A stretch of DNA of 12,040 bases from contig JAIELR010000172.1 of NCBI GenBank assembly GCA_019752835.1, positions 1-12,040 on the forward strand, read 5' to 3'. A program made the position numbers and the translations under genes. The notes below the pieces were generated by a model, which was not told where the DNA came from, made no database searches, and worked only from the letters and a program-made list of their open reading frames with translations. Positions 1-6,969 of this stretch are shown piece by piece. This DNA comes from Gammaproteobacteria bacterium (GTDB lineage Bacteria > Pseudomonadota > Gammaproteobacteria > UBA1113). Each line of letters begins with the position of its first letter. Position 1 is the stretch's first letter.

Positions 1-361
1 CTGAGCTTGATGAACCAGTGGTTGTAGCTAGTATCCCTAGTTTTGCTAAGTTATCCGCACACCACTCACCCTCACATACCATGAGGGTCTCGTCTGACCT
101 TGAGATTATTTCGTGCAAACGGTATAGCGGTTTTTCCTCCAAATATTTTGGTTCACCAAGGCAATAATTGTTAACATTAAGATGCACTGGCCTAATCCAT
201 TTTACTCCTGTGGTGGAATGCTTTAAACGAATGCGCCAATATAAAGCTTGACCTATTTGGTCTGTATACTCATGTATCGCTTCTAACTGATAACCGTCAT
301 TGAGTGGCTTATCTGCTAATTTGTATACAGCTTCATTGAGATTTTTATTGGTGGTAATCAT
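1..361 (-). CDS. Toprim-domain primase (P4-like mobile-element primase), 3' end beyond the window
   Basis: This is the N-terminal 120 residues of a reading frame that stays open to the window edge. Residues 93-110 read LMVCEGEWCADNLAKLGI; the EGE core with a hydrophobic strand before it and a helix after it is the acidic motif of a Toprim fold (Glu97 is the likely catalytic acid), followed by the ATTTG turn. Toprim domains of this kind synthesise RNA primers in phage P4-like and plasmid primases, usually with a helicase domain behind them, which would lie outside the window. The ATG at 361 has a strong ribosome site (GGAGG, six bases before ATG) and lies inside the end of the CHC2 zinc-finger gene, a 17-nt overlap that suggests coupled translation. 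The two together equal a standard primase N-terminus, so they probably act as a split primase. Domain assignment is firm; the specific family is inferred. Confidence 0.85.
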   Translation of the reverse strand, partial: MITTNKNLNEAVYKLADKPLNDGYQLEAIHEYTDQIGQALYWRIRLKHSTTGVKWIRPVHLNVNNYCLGEPKYLEEKPLYRLHEIISRSDETLMVCEGEWCADNLAKLGILATTTGSSSS

Positions 362-671
362 GATTTACCTCCAATGCGTTTAATGCACGTGCAGCTTTTA
401 AAAAACTTAAATTGTAACGTTTTCTGTGGAATTCTAATACGTCACCCCCATGTACTCCGCATGCCATACAGCAAAAACCACCTGAATCAAGACGAACTCG
501 CAAACTGGGGGTGGTATCATTATGAAAAGGACATAGCGCAGATTTCCACTCTAAACTGCCTGTAAGTTTTAAACCTTGGCTTTTATAGTATTGGCCAGCA
601 CTTGGCAATAAGTTACGATTAAAAACTCGGCTATAGCGCCTCGGTTTTCGATTACTATTTGTTTTAATCAT
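345..671 (-). CDS. CHC2 zinc-finger protein, N-terminal part of a split mobile-element primase
   Basis: A 108-residue protein with a clear CHC2 zinc ribbon: Cys47-x2-His50 (ALCPFHND), then GGFCCMACGVHGGD carrying Cys68-x2-Cys71, followed by DVLEF. In DnaG-type primases this ribbon recognises single-stranded template DNA and is followed in the same chain by the Toprim catalytic domain. Here the chain stops and the Toprim domain starts in another frame 17 nt back, so the primase is made as two polypeptides. The start at 671 is supported by a GGGGAGG ribosome site and lies 3 nt after the alpA stop, so the two are surely co-transcribed. The N-terminus is rich in Arg/Lys. It probably serves replication of the integrated island after excision. 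Confidence 0.88.
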   Translation of the reverse strand: MIKTNSNRKPRRYSRVFNRNLLPSAGQYYKSQGLKLTGSLEWKSALCPFHNDTTPSLRVRLDSGGFCCMACGVHGGDVLEFHRKRYNLSFLKAARALNALEVNHDYHQ

Positions 672-674
672 TGC

Positions 675-929
675 TTATACCTCCCCTTTAGCTGCACTAC
701 GATCTGTTTCTAGCTTTGCAACTAATGCAGAAATTTCCTTGTCATTTTTGCCTGCAATACGGGCAAGATTTAAGGCTTCAACTTCGGCAGCAGGCCAACC
801 AACACATCGTGCACCAAGACGGACAGGTTTAGTCCATAATCCTTGTGCAATACGGAGATAGATAGTGCTACGAGAGTAGCCAGACAATTTTTTAACTTCA
901 GGAAGACGGAGAATGATAGAAGAACGCAT
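675..929 (-). CDS. alpA: AlpA-family transcriptional regulator (MerR-like winged-helix DNA-binding protein)
   Basis: The 84-residue protein starts MRSSIILRLPEVKKLSGYSRSTIYLRIAQG, the usual AlpA layout: a short strand, a LPEVKKLSGYSRSTIY helix-turn-helix, then a wing with W/P-rich residues (LWTKPVRLGARCVGW) and the helix AAEVEALN. AlpA proteins are small activators of integrase or excision genes; the type member acts on CP4-57, which also sits in ssrA. The frame is open upstream to a GTG at 974, but the ATG at 929 has AAGGAG seven bases before it and fits the usual family start, so I chose 929. The neighbours are the two primase genes downstream and, about 100 nt upstream, the end of an unrecognised gene. 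A role in switching the island's integrase or primase genes is inferred from family and context. Confidence 0.88.
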   Translation of the reverse strand: MRSSIILRLPEVKKLSGYSRSTIYLRIAQGLWTKPVRLGARCVGWPAAEVEALNLARIAGKNDKEISALVAKLETDRSAAKGEV

Positions 930-974
930 GTTTGTACTCCTTGGTACGTTGTTAAACATGCTCCCATTGAACAC

Positions 975-1004
975 GAGATAGGGGGATATCTTGCAACCTA
1001 TCTC
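975..1004. promoter_or_regulatory. 8-bp inverted repeat upstream of alpA, possible operator
   Basis: GAGATAGG (975-982) and CCTATCTC (997-1004) are perfect inverted copies separated by 14 nt, in the roughly 100-nt gap between the unrecognised gene (stop at 1033) and alpA (start at 929). The repeat is not followed by a T-run in the direction of transcription, so it does not look like a terminator. Its place just ahead of alpA makes an operator for AlpA or another island repressor plausible. No convincing promoter hexamers were found beside it. Confidence 0.3.
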
Positions 1005-1032
1005 TTAAAACAGAGATTATGAGCGGTATTTT

Positions 1033-1821
1033 TTATAATACGGGGATAGGGAGAAGATTGCTAGCAGTGATTTTTTTGCATGAAGCTAAAGGCATACTTT
1101 TCAATATTTGTTGTAAACGGCTTTTATTAATACCCTCTTCATTTGCAACAACTTGAAGAAAAGCCCTCGTTCCTTTTCTCTTTTCTTCTTGGACACGAAG
1201 ATACAGTCTATTACGCCGATTTTCAGTAGTTTCAGCCTTGCCTAATGGATGGTCTATACAATAAACTAAAGTACTTTTATCGAGAATAAGTTGATCTTGA
1301 GTAAACGTGATTACATTTAGCAGCGGTATTAAATGGCCGGATATAGAAAGAAGCATTTCATTTTCATAAAATAAGAAGACCGGACTTTGATGATTTTGTT
1401 TTTTGCCTTTTAACGTCCCCAGATGCCATTTGTTACCATCTGTTAGCCTAATTGTTGGATTAGTTATTTGCAGCAAATTAGCAAGAGCTGTAGCCAATGC
1501 CTCCATGCTAATCTTCCATTGTTTTAGTCTCTCTAGGTCAACAGGAATACGCCCAATATCATCTCGTTTATCACAAGAAATGAAAGCACGAGCAGGTCGA
1601 TTATCTGCCTCAGGAAAAATTTCTACAGGCATAAAACAATTTTCCTCGCATCCTCGACATATTGTTGAGTTACCGGGCGACGATTGCTTTAAGATATTGG
1701 AGTCTTTGAGCACCTTTACAAACGAAGATGGCCATTCAGCTATATCATCCATGCTGAATAAAACACTAGCTTTATTGCCAAGCCTATAAAAGATTTGCTC
1801 AAGCAACAGCTTCAAGTTCAT
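1033..1821 (-). CDS. Unrecognised 262-aa protein with a Cys cluster and a C-terminal HTH-like segment
   Basis: I cannot assign a named family. Visible features: a Cys cluster near residue 55 (ICRGCEENCFMPV, Cys55-x2-Cys58-x3-Cys62) with another Cys at 83 (FISCDKRDDIGRI), which could bind zinc; a central hydrophobic helix (residues 106-118); a WHLGTLKGKK motif at 132-141; a run of charged residues (TTENRRNRLYLRVQEEKRKGT) leading to a helix-turn-helix-like C-terminus around 216-241 (ANEEGINKSRLQQIL). The last part resembles a DNA-binding recognition helix. The ATG at 1821 lies inside the end of the preceding gene (23-nt overlap) and has no clear ribosome site, so it is probably translated by coupling. 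It stands between the broken gene and alpA. A DNA-binding regulator or an accessory to its upstream partner is possible; function unknown. Confidence 0.7.
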   Translation of the reverse strand: MNLKLLLEQIFYRLGNKASVLFSMDDIAEWPSSFVKVLKDSNILKQSSPGNSTICRGCEENCFMPVEIFPEADNRPARAFISCDKRDDIGRIPVDLERLKQWKISMEALATALANLLQITNPTIRLTDGNKWHLGTLKGKKQNHQSPVFLFYENEMLLSISGHLIPLLNVITFTQDQLILDKSTLVYCIDHPLGKAETTENRRNRLYLRVQEEKRKGTRAFLQVVANEEGINKSRLQQILKSMPLASCKKITASNLLPIPVL

Positions 1822-2533
1822 TGCTATGTACTATTTTAGGTTCCGAATGTTTAAGTTCAAGGCCTGAATCAATAAGCATTTTTTTGATTATCAATGATTT
1901 TTCATCATGCTTTAATGAACAAGAGTTGGGGTGACTTATATTAAAAGTATAAATTTTTTTTCTTTTTTTTGATGTGGTATTTTCAAAAATAACTTGAATG
2001 CCAACTTGGTTGATTACATATTGAGAAATACTTTTTTCTAGTTGTTCAAGCAGATCGTAAATAGCAAGAGGATTTACAGTCGGATCTGTTTCTAACGTAA
2101 TACGATCCTTTCTCCCAAAAAGAGATAAACGGAATCGTTTTATTACTACCTGGCTAATTCCCGATTCTGAGCCATAGATAAATTCAAAATTGCGAGATTT
2201 TAATATAGTGAGTTCATATACGCGTTCATCTTTAGGATCATCGGGTAGTGCTTCATTTAAAACAATTTTGGTAAAAATTTTTTGTAATTCAAGTATTAAA
2301 GTGTTATCGCCGATAGCGGGAATGTCTAGCGTTCCTTCATTTTTAGAATAAATAAAAATAATCTCAAAAGCGGGATGATGCGCTCGTTTCTGAAATTGAT
2401 TTTCTTCCCATTCAACACTTGCTTGTGCGTAATCCTCAGGGTAAGCAAAAAAATAATCTAAATCGTTGCGCTTAAAGCAATCAATCTTGCAATTTTTGCC
2501 ACGTCCCTGTGTAATATATAAAATATTTCGCAA
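1799..2533 (-). CDS. C-terminal part of an unrecognised gene split by a frameshift
   Basis: This frame carries about 235 residues beginning TQGRGKNCKIDCFKRNDLDYFFAYP. Its only in-frame start is a weak TTG inside the preceding gene, with no ribosome site of its own, and the two frames overlap by 53 nt. Removing a single T in the TATATATTACACAGG stretch (about 2510-2525) joins the two frames smoothly as ...EIAKYFIYTQGRGKNC..., so this is best read as the C-terminal two thirds of one roughly 400-residue protein. The sequence is a mixed alpha/beta protein with charged patches (FGRKDRITLETDPT, KKRKKIYTFNISHPNSCSLKH) but no motif I can name. It could still be made if the shift is programmed, or if the base is a sequencing error. 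Confidence 0.6.
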   Translation of the reverse strand: MRNILYITQGRGKNCKIDCFKRNDLDYFFAYPEDYAQASVEWEENQFQKRAHHPAFEIIFIYSKNEGTLDIPAIGDNTLILELQKIFTKIVLNEALPDDPKDERVYELTILKSRNFEFIYGSESGISQVVIKRFRLSLFGRKDRITLETDPTVNPLAIYDLLEQLEKSISQYVINQVGIQVIFENTTSKKRKKIYTFNISHPNSCSLKHDEKSLIIKKMLIDSGLELKHSEPKIVHSNELEAVA

Positions 2534-2996
2534 TCTCTTGCTCTAGTAAATTAACGGTACTAGCATCTACTCTTGCATTTTTTTGAGGCATATTTTTTCG
2601 TTTACGCCAATACGTTAGGGTATCTGCATGGTTAAACGCACTAGCACCATCCCAATATTCTGGTCGCTCAAGAAAAGTCCAAAATGCATGTTCATAAAAT
2701 CCTTTAAACATAGAAAATTGTAATGCTAAATTTTCGCCATGCCATGTTGCCTCATCAATGATAGCTTTTGATCCAGCTTCTGTAGCCATGTTGTGAATTG
2801 CGTAAAAATCTTGTTCCATTGGGTTGCGTATATTTTCTGGCAACTCGAGCCATGCTTGATAAATTGGCTCAATTTTTGTTTCAAGCACGTTTTCAAATTC
2901 AATTTCTGTTAACACGTTATGCTGGGTAAAGTACTGCTGCAAGAATTTATTAGGAACTTTACGCAAGAAGTGTTGTAGGTTAAACGCTTTAGACAT
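2481..2996 (-). CDS. N-terminal part of an unrecognised gene split by a frameshift
   Basis: The frame encodes 171 residues, of which about 160 appear genuine; the last ones (YYTGTWQKLQD) look like out-of-frame tail after the shift near 2515. The ATG at 2996 has a good AGGA ribosome site and lies 14 nt after the dinD stop, so it belongs to the same transcript as PIN-dinD. The protein is predicted mostly helical, rich in aromatic and acidic residues (YQAWLELPENIRNPMEQDF, YEHAFWTFLERPEYWDG), with no signal peptide or membrane segment. I do not recognise a named domain. The frame that follows (1799-2533) is very probably its continuation; its partner downstream is the Cys-motif protein at 1033-1821. 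Confidence 0.65.
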   Translation of the reverse strand: MSKAFNLQHFLRKVPNKFLQQYFTQHNVLTEIEFENVLETKIEPIYQAWLELPENIRNPMEQDFYAIHNMATEAGSKAIIDEATWHGENLALQFSMFKGFYEHAFWTFLERPEYWDGASAFNHADTLTYWRKRKNMPQKNARVDASTVNLLEQEIAKYFIYYTGTWQKLQD

Positions 2997-3010
2997 TATA
3001 ATCCTATGTT

Positions 3011-3847
3011 TTATAGAGCATCTGGTTTTTTTAACGCTTTTTTGTCTTCTGAAGCTAAACGACGCTCAATTTTTTTAACATCTTCCGCGGCTGGAAGCTT
3101 TTCAGGATGTATTCCTCGATCTAATAGTGTTTTACGAACAGCCTCATTATTGGTGACGTGCTCCTCTGAAATTGCGGACTCTGTTTTCATTCCGTGTGCT
3201 TTCGCATTAAACGCAGTAATTTCAGCAGCAAAATCTTTTGCTTTTAAAATAATCGTAGGGGCAAAATCTGCCAGAGGGCGACCCTCAGGAACTTTCCACT
3301 GAGTCTTCATTACTTTTGTCGGTTTGCCAAAAAGCGCTTGATCACCTTTGCTTCGAATAAGCGCAAAATTTTCATTTCCACCTGTTTGCTCATAAATCAC
3401 TTGTGACAGCTCTTTCTCGGTCTGACTCAGCTTTTTGCGAGCTGTCAATCGCTCAAATTCCTGCAATCGTTGTTCAATTAATTCTGCGCGTCTCGTTTGA
3501 ATGGCGAAATAGGTCTGCGCAAATGCAATTTCTGATTTCTTTGGATCGCCATTTTGCGCAATTAAATAACAAGCATAGCGTGTGAGCATAAAATCATCAA
3601 TTTCACGTTGGCTACCTGAACCAAGATCGACCATTTTGCTGACGTCAGCAAAATGGTCTGAAACCGCATGGTTTGAAGTCTCGCAAGCAATCTTAGCCTT
3701 GGCAATTGCGTTCAAAAAATTTCGCCATTGATCATAACCAAGTAGTTTTTGTAGATCACGCGCAAGCCAAAACTCTGTCCCATCTACAGTTTTTTGGGCA
3801 TAAGATTCAAATGTATTGGTTAAGGTATGGATCATTTCGGTTTTCAT
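3011..3847 (-). CDS. dinD: DinD, DNA damage-inducible protein D
   Basis: The 278-residue product matches DinD in length (E. coli 274) and in landmark segments: EFWLARDLQKLLGYDQWRNF (residues about 25-44, the Bro-N-like N-terminal fold), DHFADVSKMVDLGSGSQREI, the highly typical LTRYACYLIAQNGDPKK (about 108-124), and a Lys/Glu-rich helical middle. In E. coli DinD belongs to the SOS regulon and inhibits RecA strand exchange. Its ATG overlaps the stop of the PIN gene (ATGA at 3844-3847), with a GAGG ribosome site inside that gene's end, so the two are translated together. No LexA-type box is visible upstream of the pair. Such island-borne dinD copies are accessory rather than core. The coding sequence contains a perfect 30-bp palindrome at 3629-3658. 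Confidence 0.93.
   Translation of the reverse strand: MKTEMIHTLTNTFESYAQKTVDGTEFWLARDLQKLLGYDQWRNFLNAIAKAKIACETSNHAVSDHFADVSKMVDLGSGSQREIDDFMLTRYACYLIAQNGDPKKSEIAFAQTYFAIQTRRAELIEQRLQEFERLTARKKLSQTEKELSQVIYEQTGGNENFALIRSKGDQALFGKPTKVMKTQWKVPEGRPLADFAPTIILKAKDFAAEITAFNAKAHGMKTESAISEEHVTNNEAVRKTLLDRGIHPEKLPAAEDVKKIERRLASEDKKALKKPDAL
3629..3658. repeat. Perfect 30-bp palindrome inside dinD
   Basis: GACCATTTTGCTGAC (3629-3643) is followed immediately by its exact reverse complement (3644-3658), with no spacer and TGACGTCA at the centre. On the minus strand it encodes the DinD residues DHFADVSKMV. The flanking bases do not pair, so the symmetry stops sharply. It may be a protein-binding site, a cruciform-forming site, or a product of chance plus codon choice. 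Confidence 0.9.
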
Positions 3848-4716
3848 ATTAATTCCTCAATTGACGCGTGACTCGGTTTTATTGAGTCGTTTATTAAATT
3901 TGGAAAGTAAATGGGTGTTATATTAGGATTCAGATTCTTAGTATGCAAATTTGCGAGATCTTTGTCATTAGTGATTAAAGCAGAGCAGTAAGAGGCCTCA
4001 ATTATTTGAACTCCGTCAGTAAACTTGTCTTTTTTAAGTAGATTTTGGGGTTGTAGCGATTTTTCTGTTAGAAAATCTAAATACAAATGATATAATAGTA
4101 ATGCACGTAATGTCGGGTATGTGCTTATATGAATAACAAATTTAATTAAAATAAGATCGCTATATTTAATTTGAGTGACATTAAAAAAAATTAATCGTAA
4201 TGTTGATAATTTTTCTGTGTTATGGGCAAAATCTTTTAAAAAAGATTGCACACATTCGTCAAAGTTTTTAACTTTCTTATATTTGAGGGGAGATGTTGGT
4301 TGCCATAGTGTGCGACTCTTTTCTAGTAAGTTTTCTCGTTCAGTAATAAAATCTTTTAATTTTTTATCCTCAAGTCCTTCACTATAATTTTCAACTCGCT
4401 TATTTAACTCTTGTAATAGAAGCTCATCAGTTATAAATGGATTGAATGGTTGATCTTCCTTTAATTTATTGAGCTCCATACGATATAAACATTCACGTCC
4501 TTTGCTAAATTTTGGATTTAAATTTCTAACAAAACGAAATAGCTTTACGGTTTTTTCTTTATTTTTCAAGCTACATGCTGCAAGTTCGTATGTAGTGTAA
4601 ATCCCAATCACGGGTAATAAATTATTCTTCTCTAATATATTATGAAGGTTAGATATACTTATATTATTATCGATACAGTAATTAATAAAACTAGTATCAA
4701 GGAAAGCTGTTTTCAT
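3844..4716 (-). CDS. PIN-like nuclease domain protein, large form with a long central insertion
   Basis: The 290-residue product begins MKTAFLDTSFINYC, the first PIN motif (Asp7), followed by TTYELAA with Glu44, and ends with DGVQIIEASYCSALITNDKDL (Asp234, Glu240, Asp251/Asp253), the classic final PIN motif where acidic residues hold the metal. PIN domains are Mg-dependent ribonucleases, best known as VapC-type toxins of about 130 residues; here roughly 180 residues of unrecognised helical sequence separate the motifs, so this is not a standard VapC and there is no antitoxin-like gene beside it. The start has a good AGGATGAG ribosome site, the gene follows the integrase stop by 23 nt, and it overlaps dinD by 4 nt. 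Its sequence is visibly more AT-rich than int or dinD, which fits acquired cargo. Nuclease activity is inferred from motifs. Confidence 0.75.
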   Translation of the reverse strand: MKTAFLDTSFINYCIDNNISISNLHNILEKNNLLPVIGIYTTYELAACSLKNKEKTVKLFRFVRNLNPKFSKGRECLYRMELNKLKEDQPFNPFITDELLLQELNKRVENYSEGLEDKKLKDFITERENLLEKSRTLWQPTSPLKYKKVKNFDECVQSFLKDFAHNTEKLSTLRLIFFNVTQIKYSDLILIKFVIHISTYPTLRALLLYHLYLDFLTEKSLQPQNLLKKDKFTDGVQIIEASYCSALITNDKDLANLHTKNLNPNITPIYFPNLINDSIKPSHASIEELI

Positions 4717-4739
4717 AATCTCATCCTATTGAACGTAAA

Positions 4740-5930
4740 TCAGTTAGTACTTTCAACTTTTATTTCATCCAAATAATCTGCCCATTGCTGCATCATTTTT
4801 TTGCGCTCGGCTAAATGAGCGGTTCTGTTGTAAGCCCTACCATTAGGATCACGTACTGCATGAGCGAGTTGATGCTCAATATAATCCGGTCGCACCCCCA
4901 ACACCTCATCCAAGATTGTTCTTGCCATTGCTCTAAAGCCGTGGCCTGTCATTTCACTTTTATCTATTCCCAAACGGCGCATAGCTGCCAAGATAGCATT
5001 ATCACTCATTGGTCGTTCATTGCTGCGCGCGCTTGGAAATACAAATTGCCCCCTGCTCGTCAGCGAATGAAGTTCATTTAATATATCAAGCGCTTGCCGA
5101 GATAATGGCACGATATGCTCGGTATTGGTCTTGGTAACAGTGTAACGCCATTCTGCTTTATCAAGATCGATATCTGACCATTTGGCAGTTCGGAGTTCGC
5201 CTGGGCGAACAAAAACCAAAGGAGCTAATCGAAGCGCGCAATGTACAATTAGCGTGCCTTTGTAAGCATCAATTGCTTGTAACAGTCCAGCGACTTGTTT
5301 AGGTTCCGTGATAGCTGCAAAATGTTTTTCTTTCACGGGTGGGAGAGCACCTCGGAGATCGGCTGAAGGATCACGCTCTGCACGTCCTGTAGCAATCGCA
5401 TAACGAAATATTTGTCCGCAATTACTTAATGTACGGTGCGCTGTTTCAAGTGCACCTCTTTTTTCTACTCGATGCATAATAGATAAGAGGAGTGGGGCGG
5501 TAATATCGACAATTGGCATAGTACCAACCCAAGGGAAAACATCGCGCTCAAGTCGGCGCAAGGTACGGGTAGTGTGGCTTTCTGTCCAAGTAGCCGAGTA
5601 CTTGGCAAGCCATTCTCTGGCAATGGCTTCAAAATTGTTTGCAATATGGTTAGCCTTTGCTGCCTTTTTAGCCTTGCGGTTTTCACTAGGATCAACTCCA
5701 ACAGCCAACAATTTACGCGCCTCGTCTCGACGATCTCGGGCATCTTTTAAACTTACTTCGGGATAAACACCCAAAGACAACCGCTTTTCCTTGCCCTCAA
5801 TCCGATATTTCAGTCGCCACCATTTACCCCCGGCGGGCGAAATTTCCAAATACAAACCACCACCGTCAAATAGCTTTGTGGACTTTTCGGCAGGTTTTGC
5901 ATTACGAATAGTGATGTTGGTTAAGGGCAT
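4740..5930 (-). CDS. int: P4-type tyrosine recombinase / integrase of the ssrA-integrated island
   Basis: The 396-residue protein has the layout of P4-like integrases. Residues 1-85 form the N-terminal DUF4102-type arm-binding domain (TIRNAKPAEKSTKLFDGGGLYL, KRLSLGVYPEVSLKDAR), followed by a helical core-binding domain and a C-terminal catalytic domain. All catalytic residues are present: Arg242 (VRPGELR), Lys267 (TKTNT), His330-x-x-Arg333 (HGFRAM), His353/His357 (EHQLAHAV) and Tyr367 (AYNRT). It would catalyse integration and excision of the island, with the ssrA 3' end as the likely site, since its start lies about 160 nt from the end of tmRNA. It is transcribed away from ssrA, with no strong ribosome site before its ATG at 5930. 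It looks intact and functional. Three TTGCCCCC repeats and a possible promoter lie just upstream. Confidence 0.96.
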   Translation of the reverse strand: MPLTNITIRNAKPAEKSTKLFDGGGLYLEISPAGGKWWRLKYRIEGKEKRLSLGVYPEVSLKDARDRRDEARKLLAVGVDPSENRKAKKAAKANHIANNFEAIAREWLAKYSATWTESHTTRTLRRLERDVFPWVGTMPIVDITAPLLLSIMHRVEKRGALETAHRTLSNCGQIFRYAIATGRAERDPSADLRGALPPVKEKHFAAITEPKQVAGLLQAIDAYKGTLIVHCALRLAPLVFVRPGELRTAKWSDIDLDKAEWRYTVTKTNTEHIVPLSRQALDILNELHSLTSRGQFVFPSARSNERPMSDNAILAAMRRLGIDKSEMTGHGFRAMARTILDEVLGVRPDYIEHQLAHAVRDPNGRAYNRTAHLAERKKMMQQWADYLDEIKVESTN

Positions 5931-5998
5931 GGGGGCAACTCATTTTGGCTCAGGGTCAATTGCCCCCGATCTTGCCCCCACTTGCCCCCAGATGTCAA
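5931..5998 (-). promoter_or_regulatory. int upstream region: TTGCCCCC repeats overlapping a possible promoter
   Basis: TTGCCCCC occurs three times in direct orientation on the plus strand (5960-5967, 5972-5979, 5982-5989) and once inverted (GGGGGCAA, 5931-5938) directly before the int ATG. On the minus strand TTGACA (5998-5993) and CAAGAT (5974-5969), 18 nt apart, form a plausible but weak promoter that the repeats overlap. Such repeats beside an integrase gene are typical of arm-type Int binding sites or of sites for autoregulation; which protein binds here cannot be told from sequence. Confidence 0.5.
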
Positions 5999-6035
5999 TA
6001 GACATACTGAGATTTCTTTGGACAAAGGTATAAAC

Positions 6036-6061
6036 AAAAAACCCGCTGTTACGCGGGTTTT
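6036..6061 (-). terminator. Rho-independent terminator downstream of ssrA
   Basis: The stem AAAACCCGC (6038-6046) / GCGGGTTTT (6053-6061) with loop TGTTAC gives a minus-strand hairpin followed by a T-run (complement of 6036-6041). It lies 32 nt beyond the mature 3' end of tmRNA and before int, so it ends the ssrA transcript and insulates int. Being nearly symmetrical it could also stop plus-strand transcripts. If the island entered at the ssrA 3' end, this terminator belongs to the island or to the rebuilt junction. Confidence 0.85.
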
Positions 6062-6093
6062 AGGAAGTGTTGATATTTCATTAAACTTTGATT

Positions 6094-6118
6094 TGGTGGA
6101 GGCGGCGGGAATTGAACC
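6094..6118. other. Probable attachment site (att core) at the ssrA 3' end
   Basis: The T-arm and acceptor 3' strand of tmRNA is a recurrent target of P4-type integrases, and an intact one begins about 160 nt away. The segment given is the part of ssrA that the island would have to restore on insertion. I found no second copy of this sequence between 1 and 6090, so the partner site, if present, lies left of the window. The exact core cannot be set from one junction. Confidence 0.45.
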
Positions 6119-6460
6119 CGCGTCCGCAAATCCTCGACTTTCAGCTCTACATGTTTAGCCATATTCTTGGTTTTAACACCTTGTTACCCAACAGGCAGGG
6201 TAATCAAACTGCGATTCTGCAAAGTTTAACTAGTTGACGGCAGACACCCCTACTAGCGATCTTGTGAGAAATGACCACTGGGAACAGATGCACAAGCACA
6301 TCTGGCCAATGGCGCTAAGCTACTGTTTAGGCAGCTTGTTCAGCGAGGATGCTATCGTTGTTTGCAACTATAACAGTAGTAACAGGTTTAACGAGCTTAG
6401 CTACTATGCTCGACATGCACTATAAAGCTTTGTAATCCACGTCGAAACCAAGTCGCCCCC
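6094..6460 (-). ncRNA. ssrA: tmRNA (ssrA)
   Basis: The 367-nt minus-strand RNA rescues stalled ribosomes with SmpB and tags the truncated protein for proteolysis. The 5' end GGGGGCG (from 6460) pairs perfectly over 7 bp with CGCCTCC at the 3' end, including the G3-U wobble that marks alanine acceptance, and the terminal CCA is encoded (6096-6094). The 5' segment GGTTTCGACG and the 3' segment GCGGGTTCAATTCCCGC are the canonical tRNA-like domain. The resume codon GCA begins at 6365 after TATAGTT, and the tag frame runs to TAA at 6329-6327: ANNDSILAEQAA, ending in the Ala-Ala recognised by ClpXP/ClpAP-type proteases. smpB is immediately upstream in the same direction. The 3' end is the likely integration site of the island to its left. 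Confidence 0.97.
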
Positions 6461-6482
6461 AAAGTTCTGACTTGATCATGTA

Positions 6483-6511
6483 ATTATAAACTATTTTTTA
6501 TTGTATGTCAT
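6483..6511 (-). promoter_or_regulatory. ssrA promoter overlapping the smpB stop codon
   Basis: On the minus strand ATGACA (6511-6506; five of six match TTGACA) and TATAAT (6488-6483) are separated by exactly 17 nt. The start of transcription would fall near 6475, leaving a precursor leader of about 15 nt that RNase P would remove to make the mature end at 6460. The -35 box contains the smpB TGA (6510-6508), so ssrA can be transcribed independently of smpB. Confidence 0.65.
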
Positions 6512-6969
6512 CGTATTTTTTTGACTTGTTGTTTTTGACGTTCCCAGTCGCGATTTTTTTCCGTTTGGCGTTTATCGTAAAGTTTTTTCCCTTTGGCGAG
6601 GGCAATGCTGATTTTGACCTTGTTTTTTTTCCAATAGAGGGAAATTGGGATGACGGTATAGCCTTTTCGTTCAACTAGTCCTATAAGTTTATTTAATTCT
6701 GCGCGATGTAGGAGTATTTTGCGTGTACGGCGCGGGTCGGGTTTTATGTGGGTAGAAACGGTGCCGAGCGGGGTAATGAGGGCGCCGATTAACCATGCTT
6801 CGCGGTTTTTAATGAGGATGTAACTATCCACTAGTTGAACTTTTCCTTCGCGCAGGCTTTTAACTTCCCAACCATCGAGGACGATCCCGGCTTCAAATTG
6901 ATCTTCAAGCTCATATTCAAAGCGTGCTTTTTTGTTGTAGGTAATGGTCTTATTGTCTGTCTGGCTCAT
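6508..6969 (-). CDS. smpB: SmpB, SsrA-binding protein
   Basis: The 153-residue protein binds the tRNA-like domain of tmRNA and delivers it to stalled ribosomes. The family landmarks are all there: [21 protein letters not shown] at the N-terminus, [18 protein letters not shown], and the basic tail [20 protein letters not shown] that fills the empty mRNA channel. The frame is open upstream to 7137 but the extra residues are encoded by the intergenic hairpin element and are not SmpB-like; the ATG at 6969 (MSQTDNK), with AGAG nine bases before it, matches the usual start and length. ssrA follows 47 nt downstream. ratA is divergent across about 330 nt. Confidence 0.95.

Follow-up and report, generated by a model that had tools for sequence, protein, structure and literature searches.

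We analysed a 12,040-nucleotide stretch of DNA from a Gammaproteobacteria bacterium (contig JAIELR010000172.1, assembly GCA_019752835.1; hereafter the window), in which the gene for a PIN-fold protein (3844-4716, minus strand) and dinD (3011-3847, minus strand) share the four bases ATGA (3844-3847), the stop of the first overlapping the start of the second. An earlier note on this DNA had proposed that the two genes form a dedicated defence or damage-response module. Our results instead suggest that the pairing probably arose by chance as the surrounding island was assembled, placing an orphan PIN gene without a dedicated partner next to an independent dinD. This would probably remove a tempting but wrong defence system. 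What remains is a PIN family outside the four profile libraries we used, and a conserved candidate DNA site, a perfect 30-bp palindrome within dinD (3629-3658, minus strand), which is also found in phage contigs.

We ran profiles of both proteins on 124 loci and the window, with flanks of mostly ~7 kb on each side. The PIN profile matched eight distinct places outside the window (G009, G033, G352, G475, G503, G481, G438 and G426), and dinD was absent from the flanks of all eight. Conversely, the window's PIN family was found at none of the ~90 other dinD genes (dinD was seen in 101 sources, counting the window and duplicate loci, with 90 distinct sequences carrying the motif). Of 143 Legionellales genomes, five have PIN and 11 have dinD (10 of these over the cut-off); the sole genome with both (G426) holds them on one contig at 140,955 and 266,643, ~126 kb apart. 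A generic PIN domain upstream of dinD was likewise absent, both among the 25 of 47 Pfam families listed for 60 upstream genes and among the 25 of 30 listed for 27 of those genes. We found no literature on DinD together with a PIN domain. The earlier note had set a search for the pair in other genomes as its own refuting test, and none of those examined keeps the two together, so the proposed module finds no second example.

The ATGA overlap itself was confirmed in the sequence, and PIN and dinD are probably co-expressed. However, the overlap is not peculiar to this pair: dinD overlaps other upstream genes in the same way. Taking the best 80 of 469 matches as dinD loci, and using a crude gene caller, the upstream open reading frame (ORF) was on the same strand in 60, on the opposite strand in 16 and missing in four; 22 of the 60 same-strand genes overlap dinD by four bases. 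Pfam families in these 60 genes include RE_endonuc (18), ResIII (17), N6_Mtase (11), HsdM_N (9) and HSDR_N (4), counted by family, such that one protein may hold two. dinD is thus often found behind restriction-modification genes, and the defence flavour that the earlier note had given it is borne out. In the type I restriction-modification system Btr190I, dinD is fused to hsdS, and the specificity function seems intact (PMC4996451). As in the window, dinD is there tied to another gene, in this case within a defence locus, showing that it joins other genes; unlike in the window, the partner is a specificity subunit, and the part of that paper available to us mentions no PIN protein (PMC4996451). 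dinD also lies beside an integrase in two streptococcal records, one phage and one satellite phage. Together with the four-base overlaps elsewhere, this means that both features of the window's arrangement occur without a PIN gene. DinD may accordingly be pictured as an independent Bro-N protein whose gene would tend to follow any gene in front of it, often overlapping it by four bases; that gene often encodes a restriction-modification subunit, and in this island the PIN gene perhaps fills the upstream slot.

The PIN protein (290 residues), which has a helical insertion, belongs to a rare, unnamed family. It is predicted to adopt the PIN fold, and acidic residues are conserved in an 18-row alignment at positions 7 (D/E), 44 (E), 230 (D in 17/18), 234 (D) and 251 (D/E); the PIN identity given in the earlier note is upheld by both. 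The protein is most likely a metal-dependent endoribonuclease, judging by this model. An initial fold model from the single sequence was discarded, and neither PIN nor DinD had a credible match when solved structures were searched by sequence (best E 0.71 and 0.22). The family is undescribed by the four profile libraries, small yet structurally clear. As a single sequence, the protein matched only itself among 5.8 billion proteins and found no relative in genome contigs. Plasmids held no relative, whether searched with the window sequence or with a relative, and nor did viral contigs, by single sequence or by alignments; one phage match (E 1) was due to chance. The first relative surfaced in a search of 10 genomes. 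A weak partial match in G264 (E 1.8e-4) was not counted, being absent with a larger profile. The neighbours of the eight places vary: one relative has an integrase and a Schlafen/AlbA protein nearby, another a PemK-like toxin, another an IS240-type transposase, and a broken relative (L101, in G352) lies ~0.8 kb from an AbiEii/AbiEi pair. We suggest that the PIN protein may be an orphan nuclease with no dedicated partner, from a rare family that spreads horizontally.

It is quite possible, if a little short of probable, that the family consists of VapC-like solitary toxin or defence ribonucleases, silent or inactive until triggered, and that dinD is irrelevant to them. VapC chains are the best solved folds for the PIN protein by Z, and some of its relatives have toxin-antitoxin and mobile genes nearby. 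Compared with VapC toxins, the PIN-domain ribonucleases of VapBC, the window protein is longer (~290 vs ~132 residues), has a long helical insertion and shares 17% identity over the aligned part; unlike in VapBC, no small VapB-like antitoxin gene was found beside it. More broadly, no antitoxin family scored above the cut-off next to PIN, whose neighbours are only the integrase and dinD, in agreement with the earlier note. HARP, the minimal protein-only RNase P, has no sequence match with the PIN protein and a lower Z than VapC. That PIN and DinD instead make up a genuine defence or toxin-antitoxin-like unit of two genes, recent and lineage-confined, in which DinD would serve as sensor, control or antitoxin, seems improbable: the ATGA overlap, the lack of space for another antitoxin gene among integrase, PIN and dinD, and the match of DinD to the PADLOC phage-defence-candidate model PDC-S13 (386.8 bits) would fit such a unit, but the two profiles never meet at another PIN place or dinD locus, the single Legionellales genome with both keeps them far apart, and dinD has an overlap of this kind with other upstream genes too. 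Nothing in our analyses, none of which was aimed at the question, pointed to DinD sensing for or controlling the nuclease.

Several points weigh against a chance pairing of an orphan PIN nuclease with dinD. Foldseek by itself gave no significant match for the PIN protein, and ribonuclease activity would be read from the predicted fold alone. The PIN family is small, with only the eight places examinable outside the window; the PIN gene in G352 is broken, and the contig of L098 begins 175 bp before its PIN gene. Four of the 80 dinD loci have no upstream ORF. Finally, a pairing restricted to near relatives outside the collections would escape our survey.

The palindrome within dinD, which encodes the peptide DHFADVSKMV, was first noticed as an inverted repeat during a terminator scan. 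Across the 90 distinct dinD genes, a mean of 13.62 of the 15 positions are paired at this site, compared to 9.88 (standard deviation of the means 0.15, highest 10.3) when synonymous codons were redrawn 1000 times from each gene's own usage. Twenty of the genes carry a perfect palindrome (0.08 expected), and the site is the gene's best 30-bp palindrome in 87; in two, only six pairs remain. Of the 270 possible pairs between codons 4 and 7 of the peptide, 225 are formed, against 134 (standard deviation 8) with codon 7 shuffled among genes. As relatedness inflates such shuffle tests, codon fixation and tree counts weigh most. Residue 3 is encoded by TTT in 87/87 genes (442/912 elsewhere in the same genes), residue 6 by GTC in 86/87 (485/1229 valine codons elsewhere in these genes) and residue 8 by AAA in 86/87 (986/1862 elsewhere). 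On a tree of 87 of the 90 genes (the three with another peptide were dropped), the state of codons 4 and 7 changes 36 times, and 21 of these changes alter both codons, with full pairing not always reached.

We also hand-picked 14 more divergent dinD genes from the search matches, which have 10, 14, 13, 9, 14, 14, 14, 5, 3, 13, 12, 14, 15 and 6 pairs, respectively. At least 12 pairs are found in all eight genes at 49-62% identity, as well as in one gene of 36% identity whose residues differ, while the other five, all below 40% identity, have at most 10. The palindrome is weak in Escherichia coli dinD (10/15 pairs). In the dinD of a Zymomonas plasmid (L133), the usual palindrome is missing, and a different inverted repeat lies 12 bases downstream (11/15 pairs over 30 bp).

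To see where else the site occurs, we scanned viral contigs for exact matches and found it in 37. Five of these sites overlap a DinD match, which in L141 amounts to a 19-residue fragment; the other 32 are outside. Four of the viral contigs (L139, L154, L167 and L174) also contain, at a distance of 41-65 bp, another palindrome related to the first. At one mismatch, 11 of 398 Pseudomonadota genomes have the site, with none for the reversed control in the rows listed; of 12 sites parsed, nine are in dinD and three outside, and a thirteenth (L187) is within a DinD match. The 28 outside sites with distinct flanks include nine in ORFs of at least 100 codons, 14 between tandem genes, two between convergent genes, three at contig ends and none between divergent genes. 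Although such ORFs cover 80% of these loci, only nine of the 28 sites are within them, indicating that the outside sites tend to avoid genes. Their neighbours are mixed phage genes, with Phage_integrase in two cases (54 of 87 genes scanned, 25 of 27 families listed). Copies of the site also occur close to dinD itself: in L065 they flank the gene (~50 bp before, ~30 bp after), and in L148 one lies ~14 bp before a dinD-like start, where the DinD match covers residues 1-65 only. Among 42 genomes of the 80 dinD loci, the site at one mismatch was found at one place in 36, at two in two and at none in four, and a multicopy repeat resembling repetitive extragenic palindromes was rejected since genomes with more than one copy are rare. 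With a looser exact pattern, matches appeared in 28 of these 42 genomes, and in one for the reversed control, vs 3 of 80 sampled Pseudomonadota.

The reading that we favour, unproven as it is, is that the palindrome acts as a DNA site in its own right. The fixed outer bases, the symmetric change of the inner triplets and the stand-alone copies would all be explained if a dimeric protein recognised a DNA dyad, and the Bro-N domain is by inference the obvious reader. In its full form, which we put forward only tentatively, DinD would control its own gene by binding the sequence-specific dyad GACCATTTTnnnGACGTCnnnAAAATGGTC, which compensating codon changes have maintained across phyla; the intergenic phage copies would be a target through which DinD senses or acts on invading DNA, or else one through which phages exploit DinD. 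Expression of DinD may in this way be fed back on through a putative binding site inside its own gene. If true, DinD would gain a DNA target, and its place beside restriction-modification genes would be explained. We found no DNA target of DinD in the DinD literature searched by title or passage, a search that left subscription journals mostly outside, and no paper on dinD by title among the matches listed for the palindrome.

Alternatively, the palindrome might work at the RNA level, as a hairpin within the dinD transcript. We consider this unlikely, though two observations speak for it: the mRNA segment folds into a 13-bp stem with an ACGU loop (z -2.6), and mismatches over the 15 pairs on the coding strand are more often G-T or T-G (48) than A-C or C-A (24). 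However, enrichment extends to the central pair (0.81 vs 0.52), which a hairpin could not form, and pairs 2-13 alone have no G-U excess (11 of G-U type, 14 of A-C type). We are more doubtful that the palindrome is functionless, a near-palindrome in a conserved peptide that is kept perfect by template-switch correction, in which one arm is copied onto the other. The conserved peptide alone does give many pairs, as the resampled mean shows, and such correction would alter both arms together. Yet the border at 30 bp is sharp (the pair just outside is matched at 0.33 vs 0.44 expected), 23 of the 90 genes retain a mismatch at one pair (GCC/GGG), and the copies outside dinD in 32 of the 37 viral contigs would be left unexplained. 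The hairpin and the correction readings are nonetheless live competitors of the DNA dyad.

The window's DinD (278 residues) carries a Bro-N domain (PF02498) and matches NF008573 over its full length (residues 1-277; 375.6 bits against a cut-off of 242, E 1.6e-112). Besides PDC-S13, on which we found no literature, it has a weaker match to a type I specificity model. The closest relative with a named organism, 83% identical, is from the metagenome-assembled genome Legionellales bacterium, so the host of the window probably belongs to Legionellales. DinD of E. coli is of the same family, with one E. coli copy 38.8% identical to the window's protein; no restriction-modification gene is annotated in the short stretch around it, for which the gene table is incomplete. 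The name DinD suggests that LexA-type SOS control may apply. The only LexA box scanned for, CTGT-N8-ACAG at one mismatch, occurs three times in the window (2.96 expected), each time away from PIN and dinD. When a dinD-like gene of a pneumococcal chromosomal island was deleted together with regulatory genes, the effect on transformation was smaller than when the element was deleted, according to the part of the study available (PMC10602874).

On the minus strand, the order of genes is transfer-messenger RNA (tmRNA), integrase, PIN, dinD, a split gene, a 262-residue ORF, an AlpA-like regulator and a DnaG-type zinc-ribbon protein. The tyrosine integrase (4740-5930; PF00589, PF13356 and PF22022 above cut-off) is 23 bp from PIN, consistent with the cargo position that the earlier note had described, and PIN and dinD are spaced by -4 bp. 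The locus looks like a small mobile island that adjoins the tmRNA gene (6094-6460, found by ARAGORN), its probable integration target, and would carry the run integrase, PIN and dinD. No convincing second attachment site emerged from a repeat search of 1-6600, the far end being outside the window or unrecognised; among the weak repeats in this region, a 16-base, 81% match of 1643-1658 with the tmRNA end was taken as chance. The gene after dinD (1799-2996, minus strand) is probably broken across two frames: its two overlapping ORFs (2481-2996 and 1799-2533) match positions 3-159 and 158-397 of the 416 in phrog_37634, successive parts of one phage family.
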